From Salinisphaera sp. T31B1 (GTDB taxonomy: Bacteria > Pseudomonadota > Gammaproteobacteria > Nevskiales > Salinisphaeraceae): a stretch of DNA of 64,000 nt. The notes beneath the pieces were generated by a model. That model was not told where the DNA came from and searched no databases. It saw only the letters and a program-made list of their open reading frames with translations. Below, one piece after another: positions 1 to 35,830 of this stretch. Location: NCBI RefSeq assembly GCF_040361275.1, contig NZ_APNH01000002.1, positions 806,001-870,000 of the forward strand, given 5' to 3'. A program made the position numbers and the translations under genes. Numbering within the stretch: position 1 is the stretch's first letter; every line of letters starts with the position of its first letter.

Positions 1-1100
1 AGCCGGTCGTAGAGCGTGCAGTAACCGTCGATCATCGCCTCGACGCTGAACCGGGCACAGACATCCTCGCGCGCGGCGTCGCCGAGTTTCACCGCCAGGG
101 TCCGATCGTCGAGCAACCGTCCGACCGCCTTCGCGAGCGCGCCGGCGTCCCGGCTCGGTACCAGCAGGCCGTTACGCTCATGATCGATGAGCTCGGGATT
201 GCCACCGACTGCGGTCGCCACGATGGGGCGCGAGGCGGCCATGGCCTCGAGTACGGTCAACGCGACCCCCTCGGCGATCGATGAACAGACATAGACGTCG
301 AGATCCGCAAGAAAAGCCGGCACGTCGTCGCGACTGCCGTGCAGGAAAACGCGCTCGGAAAGACCCTCGTCGACGATCTTTTGCTCAAGACTCGTACGGG
401 CCGGCCCATCCCCAACAATATGGAGCGTGGCCAGCCGAGCGTTTCGATCGTTCAGCCGAGCGATCGCCTCGATCAGCCGGTCGAAGCCCTTGACCGGATC
501 GAGCCGACCGACGCTACCGATCCGCAGCGCCTCCGACCGCGTGCCGGCACCGCTGGCCACGGCATAGCGCGCTGTATCGATGCCGTTGTAAATGAGTTGT
601 ATACGCGAGGCAGGCAGCTTCACATCGTTACGCAACCAGCGAGCCAGATCCTGGGAAACTGGTACGTAGACACTGATCAACGGTGCCATCACGCGGCGCA
701 GCCAACGGTACTTGGCACTGCGGCCTTCGGGGTCCGACACGTCGCGACCGTGTTCGGCGTGCACCACACGCGGCACGCCTGCCAGACGTGCCCAGAACGC
801 CACATCCAGCGCGCCGATATTGTATGTATGAACGACCGCCGGCCGTAATTGCCGCAGCCGTTTACAAAGACGCGCGTAAGCGCGCGGATCCTTGCCGGGC
901 TTCTTGTCGATACTCTCGACGACCACGCCCAACGCCTCCACGCGCGGTGCGAGCTCACCCGTACCACGCAGGCACACGATGCGGTGATCATAGCGCTCGA
1001 GCGTTCGGCCGATCAGTGCCAGCGCCACCTGCTCCATGCCGCCGATGCCGAAGCGGTCGAGCACGTGAACAATACGCGGGCGGCCGTCGGCACTACTCAT
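1..1100 (-). CDS. XrtA-system glycosyltransferase (TIGR03088-like), partial at left edge
   Basis: This is a GT-B glycosyltransferase of family 4, expected to add a sugar to the lipid-linked exopolysaccharide repeat unit in the cytoplasm. I translated it from the sequence: it starts with ATG at 1100 and stays open to the window edge for 366 codons, so the C-terminus is missing. Near the N-terminus is the family motif VLDRFGIGGMEQV. A donor-binding half follows with GSVGRLDPVKGFDRL and later SSIAEGVALTVLEAMA, where the EGxxxxxLEAM pattern binds the nucleotide sugar. The start overlaps the xrtA stop by 4 bases (ATGA), so translation is probably coupled. Its place next to xrtA matches the family often called stp2. 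The sugar specificity cannot be read from sequence. Confidence 0.9.
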   Translation of the reverse strand, partial: MSSADGRPRIVHVLDRFGIGGMEQVALALIGRTLERYDHRIVCLRGTGELAPRVEALGVVVESIDKKPGKDPRAYARLCKRLRQLRPAVVHTYNIGALDVAFWARLAGVPRVVHAEHGRDVSDPEGRSAKYRWLRRVMAPLISVYVPVSQDLARWLRNDVKLPASRIQLIYNGIDTARYAVASGAGTRSEALRIGSVGRLDPVKGFDRLIEAIARLNDRNARLATLHIVGDGPARTSLEQKIVDEGLSERVFLHGSRDDVPAFLADLDVYVCSSIAEGVALTVLEAMAASRPIVATAVGGNPELIDHERNGLLVPSRDAGALAKAVGRLLDDRTLAVKLGDAAREDVCARFSVEAMIDGYCTLYDR

Positions 1101-2137
1101 CCCTCGCCATGCCCGTCGAGCCCAGGCGCCGCGTTGGCCGCGACATCGACGCTGCCCAGCGTTGAACCCAATACCGCGGGCACGACCACGATCGCGGCGG
1201 CGAACAGCGCGAGCCGCATGATATCCGAGCGCCGCGCGCATCGAGCGCTCGAAGTCGCCGCAGGCGGTCTGGCCGGCGGTTGGTGAAACGGCCAGCCCGC
1301 GAAGAAAAGCAGCACCAGCACCGTGCCGAAGAACTGCCATCCGAAGATCGCGTGATCGGTGCCCGAGGCGTACTCGATACCGAAATGCTCGCCGATCAGG
1401 ATCGTGAAGAACACACGCAGTCCGTTGGCAATGATCGGCACGATCATGGAACTGGCCACGAAGATCAGACGACGCGTCAGACTGGTGAAAAACAGGTGCG
1501 CGTAGAGCACACCGAAGGCGGTGGTGGCGACGAAGAACTTCACTCCGCTGCAGGCCTCGGCCACATGCCATTTAGCCGCCGGTGTATCGATGAAGTGCCC
1601 TTCCATGAGCACCGGCACATCGGTCAGATGAAGCACGGCAACCGACAGATGCGCGGTGATCGTCTGAAGCGGCACCACCATGAAATTGCCGAACGGAATC
1701 GCAAACAGCACGTACCCCATGGGAAACGCCAGTATCCGTGCGACGGGCCAACCGTAGAACACGTAGATCCATACCGGCCAGATGGTAACCGCGGCGATGT
1801 GCTGGAACAGGTTGATATCGGCCACCGCACCCACCAGCCACAGCATCGCCAGAGCCAGGGCCGCCCAGAGACCATGCGGTGCCGGCTCGGCATATACGCG
1901 AGCAAGCCAGTGCCGACGGCCCCAGACGAGTACCGCGCAGATAGGAAAGATAAGGAAGGCGAACTGAAACGTACCGGTTCGCGACCAGGTTTCCACCAGC
2001 GAGAGATAGGTGGGCAGATAGGCAATCAGCCAGAGCAAGCACGTCGCCACAAAGGCGAGATGCAACCCGCTCTGATTGCCCGCCGATTGCGCATCGGACG
2101 CCAGAGGCGCGGAAGAAGAGCCGGACCAGGGGTTCAT
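1097..2137 (-). CDS. xrtA: Exosortase A (XrtA/EpsH), without a full EpsI tail
   Basis: This integral inner-membrane transpeptidase is expected to recognise the PEP-CTERM signal of exported proteins, cleave it and pass the protein to the cell surface or the exopolysaccharide. The protein has 346 residues and about eight membrane segments in the core (roughly 25-45, 57-72, 89-106, 112-130, 132-150, 200-220, 223-243, 268-283). The exosortase catalytic triad is visible: Cys196 in AEACSGVKF, Arg241 in NGLRV and His262 in GTDHAIFGW. After the core come one extra membrane segment (about 308-326) and about 20 residues. Many XrtA proteins instead continue into a full periplasmic EpsI domain, which is absent here. 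The stop overlaps the next gene by 4 bases, and the start overlaps the stop of the upstream glycosyltransferase by 4. Confidence 0.95.
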   Translation of the reverse strand: MNPWSGSSSAPLASDAQSAGNQSGLHLAFVATCLLWLIAYLPTYLSLVETWSRTGTFQFAFLIFPICAVLVWGRRHWLARVYAEPAPHGLWAALALAMLWLVGAVADINLFQHIAAVTIWPVWIYVFYGWPVARILAFPMGYVLFAIPFGNFMVVPLQTITAHLSVAVLHLTDVPVLMEGHFIDTPAAKWHVAEACSGVKFFVATTAFGVLYAHLFFTSLTRRLIFVASSMIVPIIANGLRVFFTILIGEHFGIEYASGTDHAIFGWQFFGTVLVLLFFAGWPFHQPPARPPAATSSARCARRSDIMRLALFAAAIVVVPAVLGSTLGSVDVAANAAPGLDGHGEG

Positions 2138-6522: not shown

Positions 6523-8325
6523 TCAGAAGCTTTTCTGGAACTGAATGGCGATACGGTTCTCGTGGTATTCGGACGTTCCATCACGCCAGCTATGGGCATA
6601 CCCGATCGCCGCCTGCGAGGAGCGGCTCAGCGCGCGCTCAAGCGCGACACCGGCATCGTAGCTGTCATAGCCACGAAAATCCCCGTTGCCGTCTCGTGTC
6701 TGCCAGCTCGCCTGAGGCGTCAGCGCCATCCGCGGGGTGAAGTCGTAGCGGGTCCGGATATCCACGCCCTGGTAGGTTTCGTTGTCGTCGTCGACCTGCT
6801 GATACTCACGTTTCTGGCGAAAACCGGTGATGGTTGTCGTCGTCAGCGCCGAATTGAAATCCACGGCTGCCGACCAGGACTTCTGGACGAACACGCCGCG
6901 GTCGAACAACGAGGTCGTTGGTCCACCCGCGCCGTTGAAGCCGCCCAGACCGCCCCCGCCACCGATCGCACCGGCGCCGTTGAGTGTGTTCAGACCTTGG
7001 GTGGTCGGCTCTTCGCGATATTCGATACGTGCATCCATCACGCGGCCAGTGCGGCGCGCGCTCAGTGAATAGGTCGAACCGTAAAACCGATGGCCGTATC
7101 GGGCTTCCAGCGAGTTGCGCGCCGAAGTCCATCGGATACCGGCGTTCCAGAACGGTTCGGAATAACGGTCAATGGAACCGTCCGGATTGCTGTAGTCGTT
7201 TTCGACCCCGCCTTCACCGAGCAAGCGGATGGATTGAGTTACCTGGTAGCCGAGTTCGAGCGATGCACGATCGAAATATGTCGTTCGAGACGGATCGCTG
7301 CCGTCGCTGGTGAACGTGTCGCCGCCATCGAGCTGGTTATCCCGGAAAAAGCGCGCCTGATTTCCGCCTGTCCGTTCCACCCGCTGGGTGACAACATTAC
7401 CCCGCCAGCTAAGCGGCTCGGCGGTGTCGGGACTCACGACATTCAGATACACCGCGTTGACAGTGGATTCCGGCACATCGGCATCGCCATAGACAGAACG
7501 GCCATAGCGGTACCGGAGCAGCGCCTGACCGACCGGACCGAGGGACTGATTGACATAAGGGCTGATATTGCTGACCCACGCAGACGTCTTGTTGCGGTTC
7601 GGGCTCAGCGAGTTCGATTGCGCATAACCGAACCCCGGGTCAACGACGGTCTGCCCGTAACGCGTATCGGCATCGAGATAGACGCGATTTTCGATCAGCG
7701 AAAGCGTGGTCTTGCCGCTGATGTCGTTATACACATCGTTGTAGCGGCTGTTGTTGGCATAGACCAGCCCCTGCAGCTGATACGACAGCTCGCCACGTAC
7801 ACGCCCGGTGCTCGAGCAGGCATCGATCCGAGGGGCCACCGACGTTACAAAGTCGCTCATCGCGCGATCGCCGGGGTCACGGTTGAGGTTGTCCGTATAG
7901 GTTTCCGACGCCGCGACCGACGCCTGTACATAGCGCCCGCGCGAGCCTACCGGCGATGGGGCATAGCGTAGCGGCGTGGCAATCGACCCGCCTCCGAACG
8001 CGTTGTAGGACAGATCGGAGGTCGCACACCCCTGGCCGAAGCCGGGTTGGAACGACAGTCCGCTCATGCCGGCGAGCGAGTCGCGAATCGCGCTGGCAAG
8101 TCCCGAAGCCTCGTCCTCGCTGTCGCCGCTCGCCGTGGCCGATCCGGTACCGGTGGACATGCTGCCCGGCGAAGCGGACTCGGCAGACGCGCCGCCGGCG
8201 GCAGAACCCACCCCACCGTCGTCCTGTGACCAGGCCGCCATGGGCATGGCCAGCACGATGACCGGCCCGGCCGTGGCCAGCCAACGGGACGGCCGGATCA
8301 AGCGACGACGCTGCAGATTACGCAT
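6523..8325 (-). CDS. XrtA-system outer-membrane beta-barrel protein (TIGR03016-like)
   Basis: This 600-residue secreted protein is predicted to form an outer-membrane barrel, plausibly the export channel or anchoring partner for the exopolysaccharide. The N-terminus MRNLQRRRLIRPSRWLATAG leads into a hydrophobic stretch ending MAAWSQ, a good Sec signal. Most of the rest is alternating aromatic and polar strands, and the last residue is Phe (IAIQFQKSF), as expected of a barrel inserted by the BAM complex. A Gly-rich loop lies about two thirds along. I chose ATG 8325, which overlaps the kinase gene by 8 bases. An in-frame start 42 bases upstream would put extra charged residues before the signal. 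Confidence 0.9.
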   Translation of the reverse strand: MRNLQRRRLIRPSRWLATAGPVIVLAMPMAAWSQDDGGVGSAAGGASAESASPGSMSTGTGSATASGDSEDEASGLASAIRDSLAGMSGLSFQPGFGQGCATSDLSYNAFGGGSIATPLRYAPSPVGSRGRYVQASVAASETYTDNLNRDPGDRAMSDFVTSVAPRIDACSSTGRVRGELSYQLQGLVYANNSRYNDVYNDISGKTTLSLIENRVYLDADTRYGQTVVDPGFGYAQSNSLSPNRNKTSAWVSNISPYVNQSLGPVGQALLRYRYGRSVYGDADVPESTVNAVYLNVVSPDTAEPLSWRGNVVTQRVERTGGNQARFFRDNQLDGGDTFTSDGSDPSRTTYFDRASLELGYQVTQSIRLLGEGGVENDYSNPDGSIDRYSEPFWNAGIRWTSARNSLEARYGHRFYGSTYSLSARRTGRVMDARIEYREEPTTQGLNTLNGAGAIGGGGGLGGFNGAGGPTTSLFDRGVFVQKSWSAAVDFNSALTTTTITGFRQKREYQQVDDDNETYQGVDIRTRYDFTPRMALTPQASWQTRDGNGDFRGYDSYDAGVALERALSRSSQAAIGYAHSWRDGTSEYHENRIAIQFQKSF

Positions 8326-11637: not shown

Positions 11638-14490
11638 CTAGCTCGACGGCTCGCCCGTAACCTCATTGAGACTCTCCAGGAGTTCGCTCGCTTGCTTTCG
11701 CTCGACAAACTCTTCATCGCCGGCCAGCAATTCCACCAGAATCTGGCGCGCCCGCGCGCGCTGGCTATCGTCGTCGCTTCGACTCAACGCTACGGCCAGG
11801 TGGTAGCGCGCCGTCTCGGAAGGGTTATCGGCCGAGACGGCCTTGTTCAACAGCTCGATACCCTCCGCTTCCTGGCCGGTATTCACCAAGATCCAACCGG
11901 CCGTATCCTGGATGTTTGCATTGTCGGGAGACAGCTTCAGCGCCCGACGCGCCAGATCGGTGGCGCGCGGATCATTCTGATCCTGATAGATGAGCGCTAG
12001 GTTATTCAGAGCGACCGCATTATCCGGAGCGCGCTCGAGCACCTGCCGATAGTCGTCGGCCGCTTGGCTTTGCTCATTCTCGGACTGGCGCCATTGGGCA
12101 CGCAGTAGACGAACACGGGTATCGTCCGGGGCCCGTTTAAGCCAATCGGACAGCGCCTCGGCCGGCGCCTCGGCATTGGCCCGACGTCTAGCATCGAACA
12201 ACGCAATGGCTAGCCCCGCATCGGGCGCGGCCGCATAAGCTTTGGCATAGCGCTCAGCCGCCTGCTGGAAGCGTTCGATCGATGCCAGCACGTCCCCGCC
12301 CAGACGATCGGCGTCGGCCTGACTCGCCGGTTCGGCCAGCCGATCGGCGGTTGCCAGTGCAGCCTCCAAATCACCCGCGCCGGCCTGCGCCATGGCCAGT
12401 AATCGTATGGCCGCACCTACGGGGGGTGTGCGGTCGACGAGCGGCTGGAGCGTTTTGACCGCATCGGCGTCGTGGCCGCTGGCCATCTGCGCCTGGGCCA
12501 GATCCAGCTGATACGACGAATCATCGCCGGCCTGCCGAGCCGCTCGCTCCAGCGTAGACAACGCCTGATCGGCCTGTCCATCAGCCAGCTGTGCCACGCC
12601 GTATAGCCTGAGCAAGGCGTGATTGTCCGGACGGTCTTCAGACAACGCGCCGGCTAGGACCGCTGCCTTGGCCGGCTCACCGAAGCTTATGTATGCACGG
12701 ACCAACGTCGTGGCGATATCCAGATCGCCCGGCCGGGCCCGGTTGGTGGCTTCGAGCAGAGAAATAGCCTGCGCTGGCTGCCCGGCCTGCGCATAGGCGG
12801 CGGCAAGCAGCCGGACCACCGTATCGTCATCGGGACGATCGTCATGAATCGGGGCCAGCAGAGCCACCGCCTGATCGGCTCGGCCGGTACGAAGCTGCAA
12901 CGCCGCCAGATCCTGTACCACATCCATATCTGAAGAATGACCACGCCGAAACGCTTCTAGACGTTGTTTGGCCGCGTCTACGCGGCCGTCGGCGGCATAG
13001 ACGCGGGCGAGCACCCGCTGCGCGTCCGAGCTGTCCGGGTAAGCCTTCGCCAGCGCCTCGGCCGACTCGACGGCCTGGTCACGATCGCCGTTGGCCAGAG
13101 CGATCTGAACGCGCAATCGGGCCACCTTCTCCTTTTGCTCGGCATCGGCCGGCTCGATCTTGTCCAATACCGCGGCCGCAGCGCCACCGTTGCCTTGCTG
13201 AAGCAGCGCTTCGACCAGATCGATCTGCAACGCCTTGTCGTCGGCAGCCGCGGGCGCACCCGACGCGTCACCTTCCGCAGCCGGCTTCAGACGGGCCTGG
13301 ACCGCGGCGATCAATGGCCGCAGGCCCGGCGCGTCTGCATTGTCCTGGTAGACGTCTTCCAACATGCTCAGTGCCTGCTGAGGCTGCTCCTGCTGGAGAT
13401 ACAGCCCCGTCTGCAATCGCAGCGCGTTGATATCAGCCGGCGACTGTGCCAGGACTCGACCCAGATACTGCTGCGCTGTTGCGGGATCGTTGCGCACGAT
13501 ATTGACCCATGCCAGCAGCGTCAGGCTTCGGACATTGTCCGGTGCAACATTGAGCACGCGCTCGAGCGACTGCGCCGCAGCGTCATAGTCGGCACGGCGG
13601 ATATGGATCAGCGCCTGAAGGTAATTGACGAATGCGCTATCCGGCGTGGCCTTGGCCAGGCGGGAGACATTGTCCTGAGCGGCATCCAGACGATCCAGTC
13701 GAATCTGGCAGTCGGACAGGAACAGACGCAGACGATACTGCTCGGCAGGGCTCAACGCGCTGCTCGCGCCCAGCGCCTTTTCGAAGCCGCCCACGGCTTG
13801 GTCGCAGCCGTTCTGTTCGTAGCTCAGCCGCGCCTGCGCGGCAACGACGCGCATATCGTCAGGCGCTGTCTGCGCCGCGCGTTCGAGCAGCCTTTGGGCC
13901 TTCTCCGGCTGCTCGTGACCGGCCGCGAGAGAGGCCTGCCCGAGTAGCGCCTCGGTCGAGTTCGGATCGGCTTCCAGCGCGGCTGCATAGGCTTGGGCCG
14001 CGTCGTCGGGCCGCTCGAGTCCCGCCAACGCCTCGCCGCGGAGCACTTGTGCAGCAGCTTGATGGCTATCCGCCATTCCGGAGAGGTCGGCCAGCAGGTC
14101 GAGCGCAGGCTGGAACTGGCCGTCGCCAACCATGGCTCTCGCGAGATTCAGCTGAGTGTCTGTCGAACCGTCGCCGGCTTGACGTGCCCGCTCGAACTGA
14201 TGGGACGCATCGGCGTATCGATAGGTCGCCAGCGATGTTTGGCCGAGCATGCGCCATGCCTCGGCGTTGTCGGGCTGTTCGCGAAGCACGCTCTTGAGCC
14301 GTATCTCGGCTTCCCGATAATTCCCCGATGCCAGACTCTGCTGTGCCAACGCCTGGCGGTCGGCGGGCGACTGGTCCGATCCACAGCCAGTTAACGCGAC
14401 CAGAACGCCCAGCATCGTCAGCCGAACGGCCAGCGACGGCGAGACGCGCACTGCACCGATAAGTCGATCGAATAATTTGAACATGCCCAT
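11638..14490 (-). CDS. prsT: XrtA-system TPR-repeat lipoprotein PrsT
   Basis: This 950-residue envelope lipoprotein is made almost entirely of tetratricopeptide-type helical repeats, a known member of exosortase A loci. Its likely role is as a periplasmic scaffold for polysaccharide export or PEP-CTERM protein handling; the mechanism is not known. The N-terminus has a hydrophobic segment ending in the lipobox VALTG-Cys, followed by repeats such as LASGNYREAEIRLKSVLREQ and LAWVNIVRNDPATAQQYLGR to the end. ATG 14490 is the first start; an ATG two codons later is an alternative. It lies 21 bases downstream of prsR and in the same direction, so the two are probably co-transcribed. Confidence 0.93.
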   Translation of the reverse strand: MGMFKLFDRLIGAVRVSPSLAVRLTMLGVLVALTGCGSDQSPADRQALAQQSLASGNYREAEIRLKSVLREQPDNAEAWRMLGQTSLATYRYADASHQFERARQAGDGSTDTQLNLARAMVGDGQFQPALDLLADLSGMADSHQAAAQVLRGEALAGLERPDDAAQAYAAALEADPNSTEALLGQASLAAGHEQPEKAQRLLERAAQTAPDDMRVVAAQARLSYEQNGCDQAVGGFEKALGASSALSPAEQYRLRLFLSDCQIRLDRLDAAQDNVSRLAKATPDSAFVNYLQALIHIRRADYDAAAQSLERVLNVAPDNVRSLTLLAWVNIVRNDPATAQQYLGRVLAQSPADINALRLQTGLYLQQEQPQQALSMLEDVYQDNADAPGLRPLIAAVQARLKPAAEGDASGAPAAADDKALQIDLVEALLQQGNGGAAAAVLDKIEPADAEQKEKVARLRVQIALANGDRDQAVESAEALAKAYPDSSDAQRVLARVYAADGRVDAAKQRLEAFRRGHSSDMDVVQDLAALQLRTGRADQAVALLAPIHDDRPDDDTVVRLLAAAYAQAGQPAQAISLLEATNRARPGDLDIATTLVRAYISFGEPAKAAVLAGALSEDRPDNHALLRLYGVAQLADGQADQALSTLERAARQAGDDSSYQLDLAQAQMASGHDADAVKTLQPLVDRTPPVGAAIRLLAMAQAGAGDLEAALATADRLAEPASQADADRLGGDVLASIERFQQAAERYAKAYAAAPDAGLAIALFDARRRANAEAPAEALSDWLKRAPDDTRVRLLRAQWRQSENEQSQAADDYRQVLERAPDNAVALNNLALIYQDQNDPRATDLARRALKLSPDNANIQDTAGWILVNTGQEAEGIELLNKAVSADNPSETARYHLAVALSRSDDDSQRARARQILVELLAGDEEFVERKQASELLESLNEVTGEPSS

Positions 14491-14511: not shown

Positions 14512-15870
14512 CTAGGCCGTCTGTATTTCGTGTTTTTTCATCAGATCGTAGAGCGCTGGCCGCGAGATACCGAGCAGACGCGCCGCTTTTGATACGTTCC
14601 CCTCGGCGATCGACAAACTCTTCTCGATGGCCTGGCGTTCGGCGTTGTCGCGGACTTCCCTCAGGTTGAGTTTTAGCTCGCCGGTATCACTGGCCGGCTC
14701 GGCCAGCCCCAGATCGGACGCAGTAACGACCTTGTCGTCTGCCATAATGACAGCCCGATTGACTCGATGTTCGAGTTCGCGCACGTTTCCGGGCCATGGA
14801 TGGGCTGCGATCGCCGCCAGAGCCTCGGGTGCGAAACCGCGAAGCGCCTTCCCGTGGTCCTTTGCCGCTCGCTCGAAAAACGCTTTCGCCATGGCGATGG
14901 CATCGCCTTCGCGCTCGGCCAGCGCCGGAATATCGATGGTGATCTCAGCGATTCGATAATAAAGATCCTCGCGAAATCCACCGTCGCCGATCATTTCGCG
15001 CAGATTGCGGTGCGTGGCACAGATGACCCGGATATCTACCGGTATCTCGCTGCGCCCACCGACGCGCTCGACGACACGCTCCTGTAGGAAGCGCAGGAGC
15101 TTGGCCTGCAACGCCCCGGTCATGTCACCGATTTCGTCAAGAAAGAGCGTGCCGCCGTCGGCCACCTCGACCTTGCCCGGCGTCTGCCGATTGGCGCCGG
15201 TGAATGCGCCTTTCTCGTAGCCGAACAGCTCGCTTTCGAGCAAGTGCTCGGGAATCGCCGCACAGTTGATCGCCACGAACCGGCGGTCGGCCCGGGGACT
15301 GAGCCTGTGCAGCGCACGCGCGAGCACCTCCTTGCCGGAACCCGTATCGCCAAGCAACAGAACGCTCGCATTCGTCGGTGCGACTTTCTCTATCTGCCGT
15401 ACGACCTTGAGCATCACATCGCTGGCCGCGATCAACCCGTCCAGGGGCGCACGCCCCTTCTCGAGCGAGCGGTTGGCGGTCTCCAGGTGCCAGATATGAA
15501 ATGCGCGTGAGATGATCAGATCCAGAACGTCGGTATCGACCGGCTTCTGGTAGAAGTCGTAGGCGCCCATGGAGACCGACTTGAGCGCGTTGCTTTCGTC
15601 GCCGTTGCCAGTGACCACGATTACCTTGGTCGCGGGCGCCAGTCGCAGCGTTTCGGAAAGCGTCTTCAGCCCTTCATCCACGCCGTCTGCCGCCGGCGGC
15701 AGCCCCAGATCCAGCAGCACGACCTGTGGTTCGTGTCGACGGACATGGGCAAGCGCCTCCTCACGATCGCCGGCAAATACAAGCTCGTAGCGATCGAATG
15801 CCCAACGCAGCTGCCGCACCAGGCCCGGATCGTCTTCGACGATGAGCAGACGTTCTCGTGCCGCCTTCAC
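14512..15870 (-). CDS. prsR: Sigma-54-dependent response regulator PrsR
   Basis: This 452-residue cytoplasmic activator has a receiver, an AAA+ and a DNA-binding domain, and is the family associated with activation of PEP-CTERM genes. In the receiver the phosphoacceptor is Asp54 (VVLLDLGLP). The AAA+ domain has Walker A GDTGSGKE at 174-181, the sigma-54 contact loop GAFTGA at 221-226 and Walker B TLFLDEIGD at 241-249. The C-terminal Fis-type helix-turn-helix is AEGNVSKAARLLGISRPALY. The start is GTG 15870, overlapping the prsK stop by 4 bases. The -24/-12 promoters and shared inverted repeats at 20493-20607 and 21111-21254 are its likely targets, an inference from the family and from the promoters. 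Confidence 0.95.
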   Translation of the reverse strand: MKAARERLLIVEDDPGLVRQLRWAFDRYELVFAGDREEALAHVRRHEPQVVLLDLGLPPAADGVDEGLKTLSETLRLAPATKVIVVTGNGDESNALKSVSMGAYDFYQKPVDTDVLDLIISRAFHIWHLETANRSLEKGRAPLDGLIAASDVMLKVVRQIEKVAPTNASVLLLGDTGSGKEVLARALHRLSPRADRRFVAINCAAIPEHLLESELFGYEKGAFTGANRQTPGKVEVADGGTLFLDEIGDMTGALQAKLLRFLQERVVERVGGRSEIPVDIRVICATHRNLREMIGDGGFREDLYYRIAEITIDIPALAEREGDAIAMAKAFFERAAKDHGKALRGFAPEALAAIAAHPWPGNVRELEHRVNRAVIMADDKVVTASDLGLAEPASDTGELKLNLREVRDNAERQAIEKSLSIAEGNVSKAARLLGISRPALYDLMKKHEIQTA

Positions 15871-17951
15871 TGGTCAACCTCCATACCCGCCGCACGCGGC
15901 AGAATGAGAGAAAAGCGGGTGCCTTCGCCCGGCGCCGTCTGCACTTCGACATCGCCGCCCGCATCGCGGGCGAATTCACGGGCCTGGAATGCGCCGATCC
16001 CCATGCCACGGGCGGCACGCGTGCTGAAAAAAGGCTTGAACAGCGATTCCCGTACAAACACCTGCGTCATACCTTCCCCATCGTCAACGATATTGATTCG
16101 CACCCACTGCTCGTCCGCGACCAGGTCGATCGTGACCTCGCCCCCGGCCGACGTGGCGTCCTGGCCGTTCTTTATCAGATGCCTGAGGACCATCCGAAGC
16201 CGCTCGGGGTCGACGCAGACCACGGCATCGGCCGCCTGGCCAATTTTCGGCGCCGGCTCACTCACCGCGAGCTCGGTAATCAGCGCATCCAGAAGCGGCC
16301 GCACAACGACTCTCTGAGGCGGTCGCGCATCCGAGGATACGCGTTGCAGCTGATCCAGCAGCTGTCGCATCCGGTCGACGGAATTCTCGATCGTGAGAAT
16401 CATGTCGTCCACGAACGCGGGATTGTGTCGGTGCCGTCCGGCATTCTGCAGCATGAGCGATTGCTGGCCGGCGATGTTTTTCAAATCGTGCATCAGAAAA
16501 GCCGTCAGCCGGTTGAACGCTTCGAACTGGCGTGCCTCGGCCAGCGCGAGATTGCTCTCCTGTTGGTCGAGAAATACACCGATCTGGCGGCCCAGCGTCT
16601 TGAGCAGGTCGATCTCCTCCCAGCCAAGCCGCATCGGTACACGCGGCGCGCTGAGCACGAGAAAACCCAGCAGACGATCCTCGGTCGGCAGTGGCATGAG
16701 CAGCTGCCCTCGATCCAGTCCCACCAACCATTCCGGCAACGTGAGCGACGGCGCGTCGAGCCGCGGCTTGCCATCTGCATCTGCCAACTCGATGATCCAC
16801 TCGTGCTCGTGCAGATACGCGATCAGGTCACTATCGGCCGGGACCACGATTTCTGCAGCATCCGGCAGATTCCATGCAGCGGCACATACGTACGCCTCGT
16901 CGCGCCGGACCCATACCGCGCCTCCGGTACTTTGAAACGGCGCAGCGACTGCACGCACCGCCCGCCCGTACGCATCCACGCCCGGTTGACGCTGACTCAG
17001 CCGCCGCATCAAGGCAAGCCATTCCTCGCGGTAATCGTAGGTGTAGTGAAAAAGATGCTTGTTGATGAACACGCGCAGATACGCGCGGACCTGCCCCGAG
17101 AGCAACAGAATCATCAGCCCGAGCGTGGCAGCCGCCAGAAACAAGACCGCTGCCACATCCGCCCAATCGCCGCCGAAGTGGCGCAGGTAGTAACTGCCGG
17201 CGACCATTGCCAGGAGATAGATACCGGCGGACAGCATGACCCCAGTACTGAATACCGCGCGGTGTGACACGCCCAATCGCGCCGACCAACTCGCATTGCG
17301 CAGGGCCGACACCACGATCAACGGCGCGGCCAATGTGTTCACGGCGCCGCGTGCGTCCCAGACGCTTGCGTCGATATAACTGTTAACCAATGCGAACGAA
17401 TACATCAGAAAGTCGTAGCCCAGCACCGTCGCGATGGCCAGACAAAGATACTTCATCCCCCAGCGCGCATCGGTAGACGACACCCGCCAGGTCTGTTCGA
17501 GCAACATCAGACCCCAGAGCGTGATCAGGCAGATGCATGCAGCGAATATCGTGCTGTGCGGCGTGCTGGCGTCGGCCACGCCGTAGGTCGAAACGACGCG
17601 CCAGAGTAGATACAGGCCGCTGAGCACCGGAAGCACGACCGCTACGACCTGCAGTCGCCGTCGGCTGGCCGGCACCGCGCCCGGCGGCACGAGCCAGGCA
17701 GCCAGCGCAACCCAGAACGCGGTCCGTACGGTTTCAGCGAGGTCGAGCGCCGGCGCGGTCAGCCCGATGATCGGCGCGAGCGTGAGCAACGTGAACCAGA
17801 GCGTATTCAGCCCGCAGGCGACCAGCAACAGACGCATGGCCGCGTGCTGACGCTCGATTGCCAGCACGAGTAGCGTCGCGACCGCATACGCCACTGCGGC
17901 GGCCGTGTTCGACAACAGCCACAGGTCGGTCGGCGTCAGACTCGGAAACAT
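15867..17951 (-). CDS. prsK: XrtA-system sensor histidine kinase PrsK
   Basis: This 694-residue inner-membrane kinase is expected to phosphorylate PrsR. About eight to nine membrane segments fill the first 290 residues, followed by a GAF-like sensor region (about 300-465), the dimerisation helix with phosphoacceptor His488 in FLMHDLKNIAGQQ, and a catalytic ATPase domain with DNA-box-like LIKNGQDAT and a G-box IVDDGEGM. The multi-pass N-terminus suggests that it senses something in the membrane, but the signal is unknown. I chose ATG 17951, preceded by AGGTG; a GTG three codons upstream is possible. It follows the sugar transferase by 36 bases, placing regulators and biosynthesis in one transcription unit. 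Confidence 0.94.
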   Translation of the reverse strand: MFPSLTPTDLWLLSNTAAAVAYAVATLLVLAIERQHAAMRLLLVACGLNTLWFTLLTLAPIIGLTAPALDLAETVRTAFWVALAAWLVPPGAVPASRRRLQVVAVVLPVLSGLYLLWRVVSTYGVADASTPHSTIFAACICLITLWGLMLLEQTWRVSSTDARWGMKYLCLAIATVLGYDFLMYSFALVNSYIDASVWDARGAVNTLAAPLIVVSALRNASWSARLGVSHRAVFSTGVMLSAGIYLLAMVAGSYYLRHFGGDWADVAAVLFLAAATLGLMILLLSGQVRAYLRVFINKHLFHYTYDYREEWLALMRRLSQRQPGVDAYGRAVRAVAAPFQSTGGAVWVRRDEAYVCAAAWNLPDAAEIVVPADSDLIAYLHEHEWIIELADADGKPRLDAPSLTLPEWLVGLDRGQLLMPLPTEDRLLGFLVLSAPRVPMRLGWEEIDLLKTLGRQIGVFLDQQESNLALAEARQFEAFNRLTAFLMHDLKNIAGQQSLMLQNAGRHRHNPAFVDDMILTIENSVDRMRQLLDQLQRVSSDARPPQRVVVRPLLDALITELAVSEPAPKIGQAADAVVCVDPERLRMVLRHLIKNGQDATSAGGEVTIDLVADEQWVRINIVDDGEGMTQVFVRESLFKPFFSTRAARGMGIGAFQAREFARDAGGDVEVQTAPGEGTRFSLILPRAAGMEVDQ

Positions 17952-17987
17952 GGTCGGCACCTGGCGAACGCCCGAATCACGATAGCG

Positions 17988-19394
17988 CTACCGTCCACCC
18001 TTGCGAAACAGCACCACTTCGACGGTGTTCACCAGGATCAACATATCCAGAAAGATGCTCCGATTCTTGACGTAGTAGAGATCCAGCTGCAGTTTGCCGT
18101 TGGCATCTTCTTCCGAGGCGCCGTACGGATACCCCAACTGAGCCCAGCCCGTGATGCCCGGCTTGACGCACTCGCGTACGCGGTAATAAGGCAGGCTTTC
18201 GGCCAGCTGGGCAACGAACTCCGGTCTTTCGGGCCTCGGGCCGACCAGGCTCATGTCACCTCGCAACACGTTTAGAAACTGCGGCAATTCATCGATCCGA
18301 TATTTGCGAATCTTCTCGCCCACCCGAGTGACGCGCGTATCGTTTTCACTCGCCCATTGCGGCACGCCCGACGCCTCGGCGTCTGTTCGCATGCTGCGGA
18401 ACTTGAAGATGGTGTAGTCCTCGCCGTTCTGGCCCACCCTGCGCTGGCGAAAAAACACCGGACTGCCGAAACCGTCTTCGACGAAAATAGCGATGGCCGT
18501 TGCCAGCATGATCGGCGACAACAACACGAGCATGACCAAGGCGACGGTGAAATCCAGCACCCGCTTGAGTGCATCCTGGAAAAAGCTGCGTCGGAACCCA
18601 TGCGAGAAGATGATCCAGCTCGGTTGCAGCAGCTCCGTCTTCACCTTGCCCGTTTGGCGCTCGTAAAAACTCAGCGTGTCGACGATGTTGATGCCCGAGA
18701 TGCGACAGGTGATGAGATCGTCCGCCGGAAAATGGTTCCGGCGGTCGTCCATCGTCACCACGATTTCGTTTATGCGATGAGAACGGGCGTAATCGGCGAT
18801 ATTCTGCTCGGTCTTGATGAGCAGATGGTCTGCGACCTGCGGCTGCTCACCCGGCGCGAGCATGCACCCGACCAGCTGGAACAACGTGTGATCGCTGCGT
18901 CGACGCATATAAGCCAGAATCGAAGCCGCGTTGTCGCCCGCACCATAGAACAGCACGCGCCACGGCGTGGAACGCTGGTCGAACTGTATGTAAAAGGCCA
19001 GCTGCAACGCGCACAGCCCGAACAGCGCGAAGACCAGCGATAAAGACAACACGCCGCGACCCAGGTAAAGCCCGGGCATGGCGTAATAGGCCAGAATCGC
19101 TCCAAAGGTCGCCAGAAAAACGCCCGCGACGACACGTACGAGCACGGGCACGTGTCGGTTCTCGCGCTGAGGCCGGTACAGGCCCATCGCATAAAGGCAG
19201 ATCATGACTGCTGCGGCAAAAAAGAACGCTTTAGGCAACAGCACCCAGTAATCGCGGGTCAGCGGCGCGTCCTGACCCATAAAGCGGACTTCCGCGGCCA
19301 GATAGACCGACGCGGTGAGCCAGGCCAGATGCACGAACCCGAGGCCAATGTACTTGACGTGTACATAGTGATTAAAGATCCGCAGCGTGTTCAT
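17988..19394 (-). CDS. XrtA-system undecaprenyl-phosphate sugar phosphotransferase (TIGR03013-like)
   Basis: This 468-residue polyprenol-phosphate sugar transferase is expected to start repeat-unit synthesis by placing the first sugar phosphate on undecaprenyl phosphate. Four to five membrane segments lie in the first 140 residues, followed by a degenerate nucleotide-binding region (VLFYGAGDNAASILAYMRRR). The C-terminal catalytic domain contains a membrane hairpin, DYTIFKFRSMRTDAEASG, RKYRIDELPQFLNVLRGDMS and LVGPRPERPEF, which are the hallmarks of the WbaP/PssY family. ATG 19394 is preceded by GGGGGTAGG. It is the first gene of the minus-strand locus that runs to the left edge, so its upstream gap probably contains the main promoter. 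Confidence 0.95.
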   Translation of the reverse strand: MNTLRIFNHYVHVKYIGLGFVHLAWLTASVYLAAEVRFMGQDAPLTRDYWVLLPKAFFFAAAVMICLYAMGLYRPQRENRHVPVLVRVVAGVFLATFGAILAYYAMPGLYLGRGVLSLSLVFALFGLCALQLAFYIQFDQRSTPWRVLFYGAGDNAASILAYMRRRSDHTLFQLVGCMLAPGEQPQVADHLLIKTEQNIADYARSHRINEIVVTMDDRRNHFPADDLITCRISGINIVDTLSFYERQTGKVKTELLQPSWIIFSHGFRRSFFQDALKRVLDFTVALVMLVLLSPIMLATAIAIFVEDGFGSPVFFRQRRVGQNGEDYTIFKFRSMRTDAEASGVPQWASENDTRVTRVGEKIRKYRIDELPQFLNVLRGDMSLVGPRPERPEFVAQLAESLPYYRVRECVKPGITGWAQLGYPYGASEEDANGKLQLDLYYVKNRSIFLDMLILVNTVEVVLFRKGGR

Positions 19395-19724
19395 CCTACC
19401 CCCACCGCCATGCGAATCACGCTGACGATCACTAACGAGTTCGAGTTCCGGCGAGACTGGCGCGAAACCACCCGGGTGGCCCGTTACATCGCCCGAAACG
19501 GTTTGTTATCGGCACGGCGCACTTCAGAACCCGTAGCGCTTTAGCGGTAACGGCCACGCTTGGTGGCGTCATTCTACACGGGCAACTCTGTCTGTTGGGC
19601 AGGATTGTAATCTTTTCCGACAAAAAAAGGCGGCGCCCGAAGGCGCCGCCTTTATCCCACACCGTTCAAGTGTGAACTACGCCGCTCTGCCGCTTGGGCA
19701 GAGCGCCGGAGTTTGTTCGGCCAA
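19395..19724. other. Non-coding region between the EPS locus and the first PEP-CTERM gene
   Basis: This 330-base gap contains the terminator of the PEP-CTERM gene at 19622-19653. The remainder should hold the promoter of the exopolysaccharide operon. I could not identify a convincing -35/-10 pair or a -24/-12 element in it. Confidence 0.5.
19622..19653 (-). terminator. Rho-independent terminator of the large PEP-CTERM gene
   Basis: A 9-bp perfect stem, GGCGGCGCC with GGCGCCGCC, around a 4-base loop is followed on the minus strand by a run of seven T. It lies about 70 bases past the stop of the minus-strand PEP-CTERM gene. Confidence 0.9.
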
Positions 19725-20426
19725 TTAGCCGATCAGGTCGCTGCCACCGCTCTTGCGGCGGAAAGCCATCCCGCCGACGAGCAGCGCGATACCCAGACCG
19801 AACATGGCCAGTTCCTGCGGCTCCGGCACGTTTGTGGTCGTAGCCAGGTCGGCCGCGTCGACGTCACCATTGAAGCCGTGCGCGCCGTTGAAGGTCAGGT
19901 TACCCAGACTAAAGTTGGTGGTCAGGAACATGAACTCGGAATTCGGATCGATACCGAAATACTGAGCCAGGCCGGCGGCAACCGTGTTCGAACCACTGCC
20001 GACGAACGCGCCCGACTTGTTGCCGGCACGCGAGAACACCTGATTACCGACGAACTGCCCGGACAGCAACGAGCCGCTGGCGAGCGTCGTGCTGCCGTCG
20101 ACCACACTACCCGTCAGTTCGAAAGAACCGCCGGTGCCGAATGTCCAGGAGGAGCCGGTACCGTTGCCTTCGGTGATGTTGTTGCCGGTCGTGAAGTTCA
20201 ACAAGCAGCCACTGCAGGTGACGGTGCTGTTGCTCGGCGAGGACACGAAGCTAAACGTGATGTCCTTACCTACCAGAGCACCACCGTTGCCGTCATAGCT
20301 CAGACCGCCCGTGGCACCGCTGTCGCGCTGATCGAAGTTAATAGTTCCTGCCGAAGCAGACACGCTCACCGCGGCATAGAACACCGTGGCTGCGATCGCG
20401 CTGACAGTAATACGCCGAATGCTCAT
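19725..20426 (-). CDS. PEP-CTERM sorting-domain protein (233 aa)
   Basis: This is an exported protein and presumed substrate of XrtA. The N-terminal Sec signal runs from MSIRRITVSA to about residue 26 (SVSASA), followed by a Gly/Ser/Asn/Thr-rich mature region of about 170 residues with a TCSGC cysteine pair. The C-terminus has the complete sorting signal: VPEP at about 200, a hydrophobic stretch (FGLGIALLVGGMAF) and a basic RRK. I do not recognise the mature domain; the composition suits an extracellular, possibly glycosylated, matrix protein. ATG 20426 has GGAGA just upstream. It has its own -24/-12 promoter and terminator, so it is a single-gene unit, probably activated by PrsR. Confidence 0.93.
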   Translation of the reverse strand: MSIRRITVSAIAATVFYAAVSVSASAGTINFDQRDSGATGGLSYDGNGGALVGKDITFSFVSSPSNSTVTCSGCLLNFTTGNNITEGNGTGSSWTFGTGGSFELTGSVVDGSTTLASGSLLSGQFVGNQVFSRAGNKSGAFVGSGSNTVAAGLAQYFGIDPNSEFMFLTTNFSLGNLTFNGAHGFNGDVDAADLATTTNVPEPQELAMFGLGIALLVGGMAFRRKSGGSDLIG

Positions 20427-20492
20427 CAATCGTCTCCGTTATAAATTGGTACGCACATCGCCAATCGCCATGTGTCGTCTCAATTCAATGGG

Positions 20493-20510
20493 ATGCAAGA
20501 GCGGTGCCAA
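20493..20510 (-). promoter_or_regulatory. Sigma-54 (-24/-12) promoter of the large PEP-CTERM gene
   Basis: Read on the minus strand the site is TTGGCACCGCTCTTGCAT, matching the sigma-54 consensus TTGGCACG-N4-TTGCW at all key positions. The GG and GC pairs have the required 10-base spacing. It lies about 66 bases upstream of the ATG at 20426, leaving room for a normal leader. Confidence 0.88.
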
Positions 20511-20589: not shown

Positions 20590-20607
20590 TGTCAATTAAC
20601 CCGACAC
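20590..20607. promoter_or_regulatory. Proposed PrsR enhancer box, copy 1
   Basis: On the minus strand this reads GTGTCGGGTTAATTGACA, an interrupted inverted repeat TGTC-N9-GACA. It lies about 80 bases upstream of the -24 element of the PEP-CTERM promoter at 20493-20510, a typical place for a sigma-54 activator site. A closely matching copy sits upstream of the second PEP-CTERM gene (21237-21254). Assigning it to PrsR is inference. Confidence 0.65.
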
Positions 20608-20690
20608 ATTGTCGACGGATCATCAGCCCGCGCTAGCTGGCTCGCCTTTCACTTCACTCAAGGCCGACACGGTTAGAATCCCCTCGCATA

Positions 20691-20726
20691 AAAAAAGCCG
20701 CCGTACGCAGGAACGTACGGCGGCTT
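20691..20726 (-). terminator. Rho-independent terminator of the small PEP-CTERM gene
   Basis: A 13-bp perfect stem, AAGCCGCCGTACG with CGTACGGCGGCTT, around a 6-base loop ends in a T run on the minus strand. It starts about 30 bases past the stop of the minus-strand small PEP-CTERM gene. Confidence 0.92.
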
Positions 20727-20756
20727 CGATCGGCTTAGCGCCGGCGACTGGCCATA

Positions 20757-21065
20757 TCAGGCTTGGTCGCGCTCCAGCAGCTGCTGACGGCGGCGGCGAT
20801 AGACCAGGAACACCAGCGAAGCGCCGGCGAACAACATGATCAGCGAAGACGGCTCCGGCACGCCGATGGTCTGTCGATACATACCGACACCGTTGTTGCC
20901 ATTGCCTTGGTAACCGCTGGTCGAAGGTTGACCGTTATAAGTCAGGTAGTCGGCACCGACGGCCGGCGCGCTGTCCTGTGCCATCGCGATACCCGAGACA
21001 CCGAGCGACGCGAGCGCCAGCAGAACACCGGCGGCAAAACGTTTGGTGAGGCGAGCTGAAAACAT
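20757..21065 (-). CDS. Very small PEP-CTERM protein (102 aa)
   Basis: This is an exported XrtA substrate with a very short mature part. Residues 1-30 form a Sec signal ending GIAMAQ. Residues 31-68 are a Tyr/Gly/Asn-rich segment (including GYQGNGNNGVGMYR), and the sorting signal begins with VPEP at 69, followed by a hydrophobic stretch and RRRR at 90-93. About nine residues follow the arginines, more than usual. If XrtA cuts at the PEP motif, the released piece is only about 40 residues. ATG 21065 has GAGGT about 7 bases upstream. It has its own sigma-54 promoter and terminator. Function unknown. Confidence 0.88.
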   Translation of the reverse strand: MFSARLTKRFAAGVLLALASLGVSGIAMAQDSAPAVGADYLTYNGQPSTSGYQGNGNNGVGMYRQTIGVPEPSSLIMLFAGASLVFLVYRRRRQQLLERDQA

Positions 21066-21110
21066 CTGTGACCTCTGCGCATTATGTGAGCGAATCATCT
21101 GCAGACAGGG

Positions 21111-21128
21111 TAGCAAATTTCACGCCAA
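21111..21128 (-). promoter_or_regulatory. Sigma-54 (-24/-12) promoter of the small PEP-CTERM gene
   Basis: On the minus strand the site is TTGGCGTGAAATTTGCTA. It keeps the essential GG and GC pairs with correct spacing and matches TTGGC and TTGCT. The -24 box differs from TGGCACG at two weaker positions. It lies about 46 bases upstream of the ATG at 21065. Confidence 0.85.
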
Positions 21129-21236
21129 ATCTATGTTGGCGCAGCGGCCTCGATCACAATGACCGCCGGTATCAAGGATTTGCAGTTGGCCAGGAGCCCG
21201 CAGTCTACCGTGCGCGAAAAGCTCGATGATTCGTAG

Positions 21237-21254
21237 TGTCAGATTAACCGACAC
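21237..21254. promoter_or_regulatory. Proposed PrsR enhancer box, copy 2
   Basis: On the minus strand this reads GTGTCGGTTAATCTGACA, again TGTC-N9-GACA. It matches copy 1 (20590-20607) at 14 of 18 ungapped positions, including both ends. It lies about 110 bases upstream of the -24 element at 21111-21128. The same box in the same relative place before two PEP-CTERM genes suggests the binding site of their shared activator, probably PrsR. Confidence 0.65.
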
Positions 21255-35098: not shown

Positions 35099-35830
35099 TC
35101 AGTCGCGTTTTTCACCCATGCGGTGACGATAACCGCGCTCGAGCGCAGCCCAGTCGGCGCCCGAGAACGCAAAGCCTCGGGTCTTGCCGGCGAACTTGTC
35201 GAGCGAGCGGCGAAGACGGGCCAGGTTGGGTGCACACCATGATCCGGGCCGGCGCTGGCGCGCCTTGTCGAAATCGATGACGTAGAACTGCCCGGTACCA
35301 TCGAGCAGCACATTACGCGCGTTCAAATCCGCGTGATGAATGCCCGCCCGATGAAAACGCGCAATCACGCGACCCAACGCCTGCCAGCCGCTGTCGGCAA
35401 GGACTGCGACCATCAAGTGTTCGGCCAGCGGTCGACTATCCGCGATCCGCTCGGTGATCACGTCGCCGCGATAGACGAGACCCCGCCGATCCGCCAGCGC
35501 GGCCACCGGTGCCGGCACCGGCAGCCCCGCGGCACGCATATCGGCCAGGAGTGATAATTCGGTCAGCGAGCGCGCTCGCGCGGCCCCACTCCAGAGAAAA
35601 CGGTCGTGGTTGATATGGGCAATGGCGCCACCCCGGCGGTTGTGACGCAGCACCCAGGGGCGCCCGTCCAGGCCGTCCAGAAAATAGGCGGCGCCGCGCC
35701 CGGCGGCCTCGCCGGTCAAACGCCGGCGGCTGCGCCACCACTGGGCCGAGAATATGACCAGCGATGGCGGCCCGTCGAAACGGGCCGCATCCCAGAGTAC
35801 GTGGCGGCCATTCTCGTCGCCACGCGCCAG
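35099..35830 (-). CDS. kdkA: Kdo kinase, probably with a non-canonical start codon
   Basis: KdkA phosphorylates Kdo in the lipopolysaccharide core. Kinase motifs are GIHHADLNARNVLL (catalytic loop) and FYVIDFDKARQR (metal-binding Asp), and GEAAGRGAAYFLDGLDGRPW is the typical N-lobe glycine-rich region. Conserved N-terminal sequence (NGRHVLWDAARFDGPP, then FSAQWWRSRRR) continues upstream of the first ordinary start, a TTG at 35719. Between it and the in-frame stop at 35858-35860 there is no ATG, GTG or TTG. CTG at 35828-35830 would give 243 residues, about the family length, and lies 16 bases after the ilvE stop. I used it, but a sequencing error is possible. It is the last gene of its minus-strand run. 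Confidence 0.82.
   Translation of the reverse strand: MARGDENGRHVLWDAARFDGPPSLVIFSAQWWRSRRRLTGEAAGRGAAYFLDGLDGRPWVLRHNRRGGAIAHINHDRFLWSGAARARSLTELSLLADMRAAGLPVPAPVAALADRRGLVYRGDVITERIADSRPLAEHLMVAVLADSGWQALGRVIARFHRAGIHHADLNARNVLLDGTGQFYVIDFDKARQRRPGSWCAPNLARLRRSLDKFAGKTRGFAFSGADWAALERGYRHRMGEKRD

Follow-up and report, generated by a model that had tools for sequence, protein, structure and literature searches.

Enhancers of the NtrC class are 17-nt dyads that lie upstream of sigma-54 promoters. For the PEP-CTERM genes of proteobacteria, such an upstream element was reported by Haft et al. (2006; PMC1569441): their motif 1, 17 nt long, sometimes repeated and with the 3' end TTTACA, is separated by 32–92 nt (mean 62.8) from a sigma-54 motif 2 that follows it. 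That report places motif 1/motif 2 before 99 of 167 PEP-CTERM genes, notes a repeated motif in Rhodospirillum rubrum, and proposes the activator later named PrsR as the binder of motif 1. Subsequently, the PEP-CTERM gene pepA of Aquincola tertiaricarbonis was described as RpoN1-dependent, with a mapped −24/−12 promoter and a "previously predicted enhancer" upstream, and in Zoogloea resiniphila both PrsK and PrsR were reported to be needed for PEP-CTERM expression and flocs (PMC9850573, PMC9012009). DVUA0057 of Nitratidesulfovibrio (Desulfovibrio) vulgaris is a PrsR homologue for which DAP-chip binding has been reported, its targets being PEP-CTERM genes plus an eps operon that includes a TIGR03013 gene (PMC3333781, PMC4641369); the respective motif was assigned jointly to DVU0110 and DVUA0057 (PMC4641369). 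In our literature search, no publication dealt with the box in Salinisphaera, and none turned up for Salinisphaera with PEP-CTERM.

Here we describe a stretch of 64,000 nt from Salinisphaera sp. T31B1 (the window; positions 806,001 to 870,000 of contig NZ_APNH01000002.1, forward strand), in which boxes of this kind precede two PEP-CTERM genes and the array that encodes PrsR itself. It is very probable, in our judgment, that the boxes are enhancer sites by which PrsR activates the sigma-54 promoters of PEP-CTERM cargo genes.

PrsR and the exosortase A array

The window contains a co-directional array that is led by epsB and ends with xrtA:

17988..19394, minus strand: epsB, glycosyltransferase of the XrtA/PEP-CTERM system (TIGR03013, 525 bits; cut-off 393)
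15867..17960, minus strand: prsK, histidine kinase (TIGR02916, 646 bits; cut-off 300)
14512..15870, minus strand: prsR, response regulator that presumably binds the boxes (TIGR02915, 688 bits; cut-off 502.6)
11638..14490, minus strand: prsT, TPR protein (TIGR02917, 463 bits; cut-off 312)
1097..2137, minus strand: xrtA, exosortase A (TIGR03109, 293 bits; cut-off 208)

Between prsT and xrtA, there are matches to XrtA-linked export, chain-length, tyrosine-kinase, outer-membrane, ATPase, deacetylase, FemAB and glycosyltransferase families, of which the ATPase and tyrosine-kinase matches fall under the family cut-offs. Two PEP-CTERM genes, denoted here gene 1 and gene 2, stand upstream of epsB on the same strand.

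PrsR consists of a receiver domain (PF00072), a sigma-54 AAA+ domain (PF00158) in which GAFTGA is present, and a Fis-type HTH (PF02954); with all three domains and a score over the family cut-off, it is a member of TIGR02915. Its best matches among solved structures are NtrC-family regulators; among named PrsR proteins, the one from Salinisphaera halophila is closest, at 75% identity. PrsR shares with the NtrC class the domain set (receiver, AAA+ with GAFTGA, Fis HTH) and an upstream dyad that would act on sigma-54; the half-site and the regulon differ.

Two boxes upstream of PEP-CTERM genes

The region upstream of the array comprises the following elements (bits refer to the congener matrix described below):

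21237..21253, minus strand: box 2, TGTCGGTTAATCTGACA (22.0 bits, rank 2 in the window)
21113..21127, minus strand: sigma-54 −24/−12 promoter of gene 2, TGGCGTGAAATTTGC (10 of 12 consensus positions; begins 109 nt past box 2)
20757..21065, minus strand: PEP-CTERM gene 2 (TIGR02595, 30.4 bits, cut-off 16; PF07589)
20590..20606, minus strand: box 1, TGTCGGGTTAATTGACA (16.7 bits, rank 3 in the window)
20495..20509, minus strand: sigma-54 −24/−12 promoter of gene 1, TGGCACCGCTCTTGC (11 of 12 consensus positions; begins 80 nt past box 1)
19725..20429, minus strand: PEP-CTERM gene 1, ATG at 20426 (congener tail model, E 5.3e-7)

Neither NCBIfam nor Pfam yields a match to gene 1 at E <= 0.001. The start of gene 2 is likely the ATG at 21065; its longest ORF (20757–21116) opens at a TTG at 21116, within its own promoter. 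The gene 1 product and the PEP-CTERM proteins encoded at two other loci of the genome (L024 and L158) have a common N-terminal pattern, FDQ/FDD followed by SYDG-GGAL-G, and by sequence look like a paralogous family.

A sequence-only reading of the window had singled out two 18-mers on the minus strand, at 20590–20607 and 21237–21254, as an 18-bp inverted repeat of the form TGTC-N9-GACA located about 80 and 110 nt upstream of the −24 elements. The coordinates and both distances are confirmed, and the dyad is present in both boxes, albeit with a symmetric core of 17 nt, the leading G lying outside the symmetry. Both boxes are outside every ORF of at least 60 aa, and the PEP-CTERM gene downstream of each is on the same strand as the box. 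TGTC-N9-GACA itself is a minority form: among 37 sites hand-picked from earlier analyses, a set that serves as illustration and not as a test, it is found in 8, the right half being usually TTACA, and position 14 is T in 24 and G in 10. Boxes 1 and 2 carry G at this position (ends TTGACA and CTGACA), a one-position variant of the TTACA end, and for this reason they look palindromic.

On its own, the TGTC-N9-GACA core is weak evidence, because there are four copies in the 64-kb window vs 0.62 expected under a first-order Markov model and the remaining two copies, at 7425 and 44766, are inside long ORFs; it is the context that is decisive. For the more specific TGTC[AG]G-N6-[TC]GACA, the expectation is 0.06–0.11 per 64 kb and strand. 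The sigma-54 elements, scored with the spacing GG-N10-GC, provide part of this context: only 0.1% of random window stretches reach a best score of 11 and 0.6% reach 10, the values for genes 1 and 2, respectively.

The boxes very probably represent motif 1 of Haft et al.; the class, and the proposal that PrsR binds it, go back to 2006 (PMC1569441). In both cases, a 17-nt element, sometimes repeated, is followed by a −24(GG)/−12(GC) element and stands before PEP-CTERM genes, in a genome that encodes PrsK, PrsR and PrsT, each over its cut-off in our window; the 3' end TTACA is found in most of the members that we collected, a likeness that is drawn by description and not letter by letter. The boxes depart from the published account in that position 14 is G instead of T in boxes 1 and 2, which creates the TGTC/GACA dyad; in that the spacer of gene 2 (109 nt) is longer than the published maximum of 92, whereas that of gene 1 (80 nt) is within the range; and in that a third box, discussed below, precedes the epsB-prsK-prsR array and not a PEP-CTERM gene. 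The systems reported for A. tertiaricarbonis and Z. resiniphila (PMC9850573, PMC9012009) are alike in the −24/−12 PEP-CTERM promoter and the PrsK-PrsR pair, albeit in other organisms.

The motif recovered from congeners and its distribution in the genome

A motif was derived de novo from 23 upstream regions of congener PEP-CTERM genes, with the window genome excluded, using a search for one or no site per sequence. Of 35 PEP-CTERM matches in the family, 30 had loci, and the 23 regions remained after three from the window genome itself and four from genome G011 that are near-identical to those of G012 had been dropped. The resulting 17-nt motif, TGTCGa.aaatcTTACA, has a log-likelihood ratio of 160, vs 60–73 in eight dinucleotide-shuffled sets, which were searched with fewer starts and rounds. 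When the corresponding matrix is run over both strands of the window, the top three sites are those at 19606 (22.1 bits), 21237 (22.0 bits) and 20590 (16.7 bits), all on the minus strand, that is, boxes 3, 2 and 1. The fourth, at 35266 on the plus strand (16.2 bits), is within an ORF; four of the 23 input regions (L123, L124, L141 and L146) score under this value, the best of any unassigned site in the window.

PEP-CTERM genes of the entire genome were identified with a model of congener C-terminal tails, for which 150 of 180 candidates were scored; there were 19 matches, nine of which were accepted as PEP-CTERM. Seven of these were found without reference to the boxes (E < 2e-5), and two (E 1.4 and 1.8) were accepted only because a box had led to them first. 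The ten other matches lack a C-terminal PEP motif and were rejected. Within 400 nt before the start, 8 of the 9 recognised genes, and 6 of the 7 that are box-independent, have a site that exceeds all 629 background segments taken from the window (p=0.0016 each, which is the floor for a background of this size). The ninth gene, L165, reaches p=0.0048, with weak candidate sites only (13.8 bits; 11.9 bits for a hand-picked one). At E <= 0.001, a six-frame search with TIGR02595 reports 3 of these 9 genes, missing L015, L158, L161, L167, L173 and gene 1 of the window.

The distribution of simple patterns depends on how the box is written. The string GTGTCGG-N6-TGACA, proposed in the sequence-only reading as a genome-wide search string, was rejected as a model of the regulon, being too narrow: in the entire genome it occurs only in boxes 1 and 2, that is, before 2 of the 9 PEP-CTERM genes. 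Without the leading G, TGTCGG-N6-TGACA is found at four places, three of them before PEP-CTERM genes. The refined box TGTCG-N6-YTKACA does not show the random scatter that would have spoken against a PrsR site: 7 of its 11 places are upstream of six PEP-CTERM genes (reversed control, 4); of the remaining four, three are inside ORFs of 182–427 aa and one is in a 97-aa ORF. The palindromic TGTCRG-N6-YGACA is partly scattered (21 places, 4 of them before PEP-CTERM genes), and the looser TGTCG-N6-YTDRCA shows little excess (24 vs 19 reversed). When box and promoter are combined (TGTCG-N6-YTDACA, 60–90 nt, TGGY-N9-GC), the genome contains two matches, each ahead of a PEP-CTERM gene, and the reversed control has none.

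That boxes 1 and 2 pair up by chance, or stem from other inverted repeats (terminators, for example), is scarcely credible on these results. The two additional TGTC-N9-GACA copies inside ORFs of the window, the 17 of 21 places of TGTCRG-N6-YGACA away from PEP-CTERM genes and the fact that box 3 abuts a terminator would be in line with such an origin, but the motif is recovered without the window genome, it is present before most of the recognised PEP-CTERM genes, and good sigma-54 elements follow both boxes.

Elsewhere in the genome, the spacers between box and sigma-54 element are 52, 60, 61, 64, 74, 75 and 97 nt, some of the elements, such as those of L157 and L173, being imperfect promoters. 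More than one candidate box is found before four genes (L015, L157, L158 and L167). L015 and L157 each have two candidate boxes separated by 53 nt, or roughly five turns of the helix. A rule of helical phasing for tandem boxes was weighed and abandoned, since 53 nt is seen twice but the distances elsewhere are 111 and 161 nt.

Conservation in related and distant genomes

Among 17 genomes of the family, PEP-CTERM genes detected with TIGR02595, a model that is not very sensitive in this family, and a PrsR over the cut-off are found in the same seven (Fisher p=5e-5, with relatedness ignored); these counts are not independent because the congeners are related. The pattern TGTCG-N6-YTKACA has 69 matches in the seven PrsR-positive genomes vs 33 in the ten negative ones (p=0.003 per Mb), with 23 and 22 matches, respectively, for the reversed controls; in G007 alone, the pattern and its reversed control are equal (11 each). 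Across 61 genomes, the box-plus-promoter pattern has matches in 12. The window genome, G011 and G012 contain two each, all before PEP-CTERM genes, and the matches in G005, G010, G013, G016 and five order-level genomes are in open frames of 205–891 aa, a mechanical criterion, given that an open frame also extends over some of the boxes that precede PEP-CTERM genes.

Outside the family, 2 of 14 loci of PrsR relatives (L031 and L035) have a site of at least 14.5 bits, each followed by a sigma-54-like element at 63–64 nt; the other 12 loci may or may not contain PEP-CTERM genes. In a plasmid stretch of Vibrio alfacsensis, the best match (24.0 bits) is located upstream of a PEP-CTERM gene and is followed, 72 nt on, by a sigma-54 element. 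A stretch of Photobacterium GJ3 has no site above 15.8 bits with the congener matrix. On the V. alfacsensis plasmid there is also a box with a sigma-54-like element (L195:31881-32656) before a gene for a protein that has a C-terminal hydrophobic stretch and a basic tail, without a PEP motif.

The comparison with N. vulgaris was made in strain RCH1 and for plasmid targets only, the DVUA numbers being inferred from a constant offset of protein accessions and from the family name of DVUA0089. The congener matrix marks three of the four plasmid target operons of DVUA0057 named in the target list of PMC4641369. The sites are TGTCGGATAGGTTGACA (13.2 bits) before the DVUA0032 counterpart together with TGTCGGAGAACCTTACA (21.7 bits) between the DVUA0032 and DVUA0031 counterparts; TGTCGGACAGGCTTACA (13.5 bits) and TGTCGGGTTTTCCGACA (13.1 bits) before the DVUA0036 counterpart; and, before DVUA0089, a 14.4-bit site on the strand of the gene that is overlapped on the opposite strand by TGTCGAGAAACCTTACA (22.9 bits), the best site of the 49-kb stretch. 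On the gene strand, p is 0.005–0.015 at these operons. The second-best match of the stretch (21.2 bits) is past the 3' end of DVUA0089, no site is found within 450 nt upstream of the DVUA0030 counterpart, and there is none in two more upstream regions that were scanned, which are not listed target starts. The DVUA0057 system is similar to that of the window in having a PrsR-type regulator, PEP-CTERM/eps targets and sites such as TGTCGGATAGGTTGACA, TGTCGGAGAACCTTACA and TGTCGGACAGGCTTACA. It differs in that the regulator is 46% identical, prsK is not adjacent to prsR, and the motif is shared with DVU0110 (PMC4641369).

The last point is relevant to whether the boxes belong to PrsR at all. They might be bound by a different enhancer-binding protein of the genome, with PrsR acting elsewhere, considering that seven more proteins match TIGR02915 with more than 270 bits and that a single motif was assigned to two regulators in N. 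vulgaris (PMC4641369). All seven are under the cut-off, however, whereas PrsR exceeds it in all seven PEP-CTERM-positive genomes and in none of the ten others, a tally made for PrsR alone. Furthermore, prsR is located about 5 kb from boxes 1 and 2, and the SRPxxYDL stretch of the recognition helix in the HTH is kept in the PrsR proteins of the seven family genomes and N. vulgaris, as is the box. We therefore regard binding by another regulator as improbable.

Recognition of the boxes by PrsR remains the preferred reading. Points that count against it are the 109-nt spacer of gene 2, the weak sites of L165, the imperfect promoters elsewhere in the genome, the lack of a site before the DVUA0030 counterpart, the joint assignment of the N. 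vulgaris motif, the equal counts in G007 and the small number of sites at loci of PrsR relatives outside the family. The likely course of activation can be outlined from the family to which PrsR belongs and from its published relatives. PrsK would phosphorylate PrsR, and a dimer of phosphorylated PrsR would bind the 17-nt dyad TGTCG-N6-YT(T/G)ACA through the C-terminal Fis-type HTH. The bound protein would form the active AAA+ ring and, by means of DNA looping, remodel the sigma-54 RNA polymerase at the −24/−12 promoter some 50–110 nt downstream. The PEP-CTERM cargo genes would thus be switched on, and their products would be sorted by XrtA encoded in the same cluster.

A third box upstream of epsB

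The sequence-only reading had noticed no other full copy of the repeat in the window. This holds for the exact GTGTCGG-N6-TGACA, which is confined to boxes 1 and 2; a third box of the same family, the best-scoring site of the window, had been overlooked:

19626..19653, minus strand: terminator of gene 1, the T-tail of which runs into box 3
19606..19622, minus strand: box 3, TGTCGGAAAAGATTACA (22.1 bits, rank 1 in the window), 211 nt before epsB

Box 3 ends with ATTACA. Counterparts are present before epsB in four of the five PrsR-positive congeners that are readable at this position (G005, G007, G011 and G012; L027, probably of the same genome as G011, was not counted apart from it, and G002 is not among the five since its contig breaks off close to epsB). 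In G011 and G012 the counterpart is TGTCGAAAACTCTTACA. In G005 and G007 a better box is located about 450 nt before epsB and the aligned copy is degenerate (9.9 and 13.6 bits, respectively), and G001 has no box of at least 14.5 bits before epsB.

Downstream of box 3, we found no convincing sigma-54 element (5 of 12 positions at a fitting spacing), and a consensus scan detected no sigma-70 promoter. There is a −10-like hexamer, TAGAAT, TATAAA or TAGTAT, 27–29 nt after the aligned box or box-like stretch (counted by eye).

Repression by an enhancer-binding protein is known for NtrC at glnA p1. By analogy, box 3 could be a PrsR site that acts differently from boxes 1 and 2, namely in autoregulation at a non-sigma-54 promoter, repressing or assisting. 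That it is the best site of the window, that counterparts precede epsB in four of five readable PrsR-positive genomes, and that −10-like hexamers follow where a good sigma-54 element does not, are all consistent with such a role, which we consider possible but tentative; the failure of the consensus scan to find a sigma-70 promoter, the degeneracy of the aligned copies in G005 and G007 and the result for G001 argue against it. The fuller version, in which PrsR binds box 3 and, beyond the cargo genes, controls through a non-sigma-54 promoter the kinase that acts on it and the entire epsB-prsK-prsR-prsT-eps-xrtA array, is rather unlikely. Autoregulation via box 3 is offered as a proposal only, because no good sigma-54 element follows the box.

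Implications

The principle of a PrsR-recognised enhancer dates from 2006; what is useful here is the definition of the regulon in this genome and the box before the regulator's own operon. If the proposal for box 3 is true, a single box would tie the cargo, the sorting enzyme and the machinery for polysaccharide into one feedback loop, and an NtrC-class activator would act on two kinds of promoters. With the box, the PrsR regulon can be read off the sequence, and in this genome the box pointed to PEP-CTERM genes that the standard six-frame search with TIGR02595 does not report. The presence of the same box form at in vitro targets of a distant PrsR, as listed in the N. vulgaris reports (PMC3333781, PMC4641369), supports the view that the switch of these surface proteins, which are linked to exopolysaccharide, relies on a recognition code that is old and conserved.
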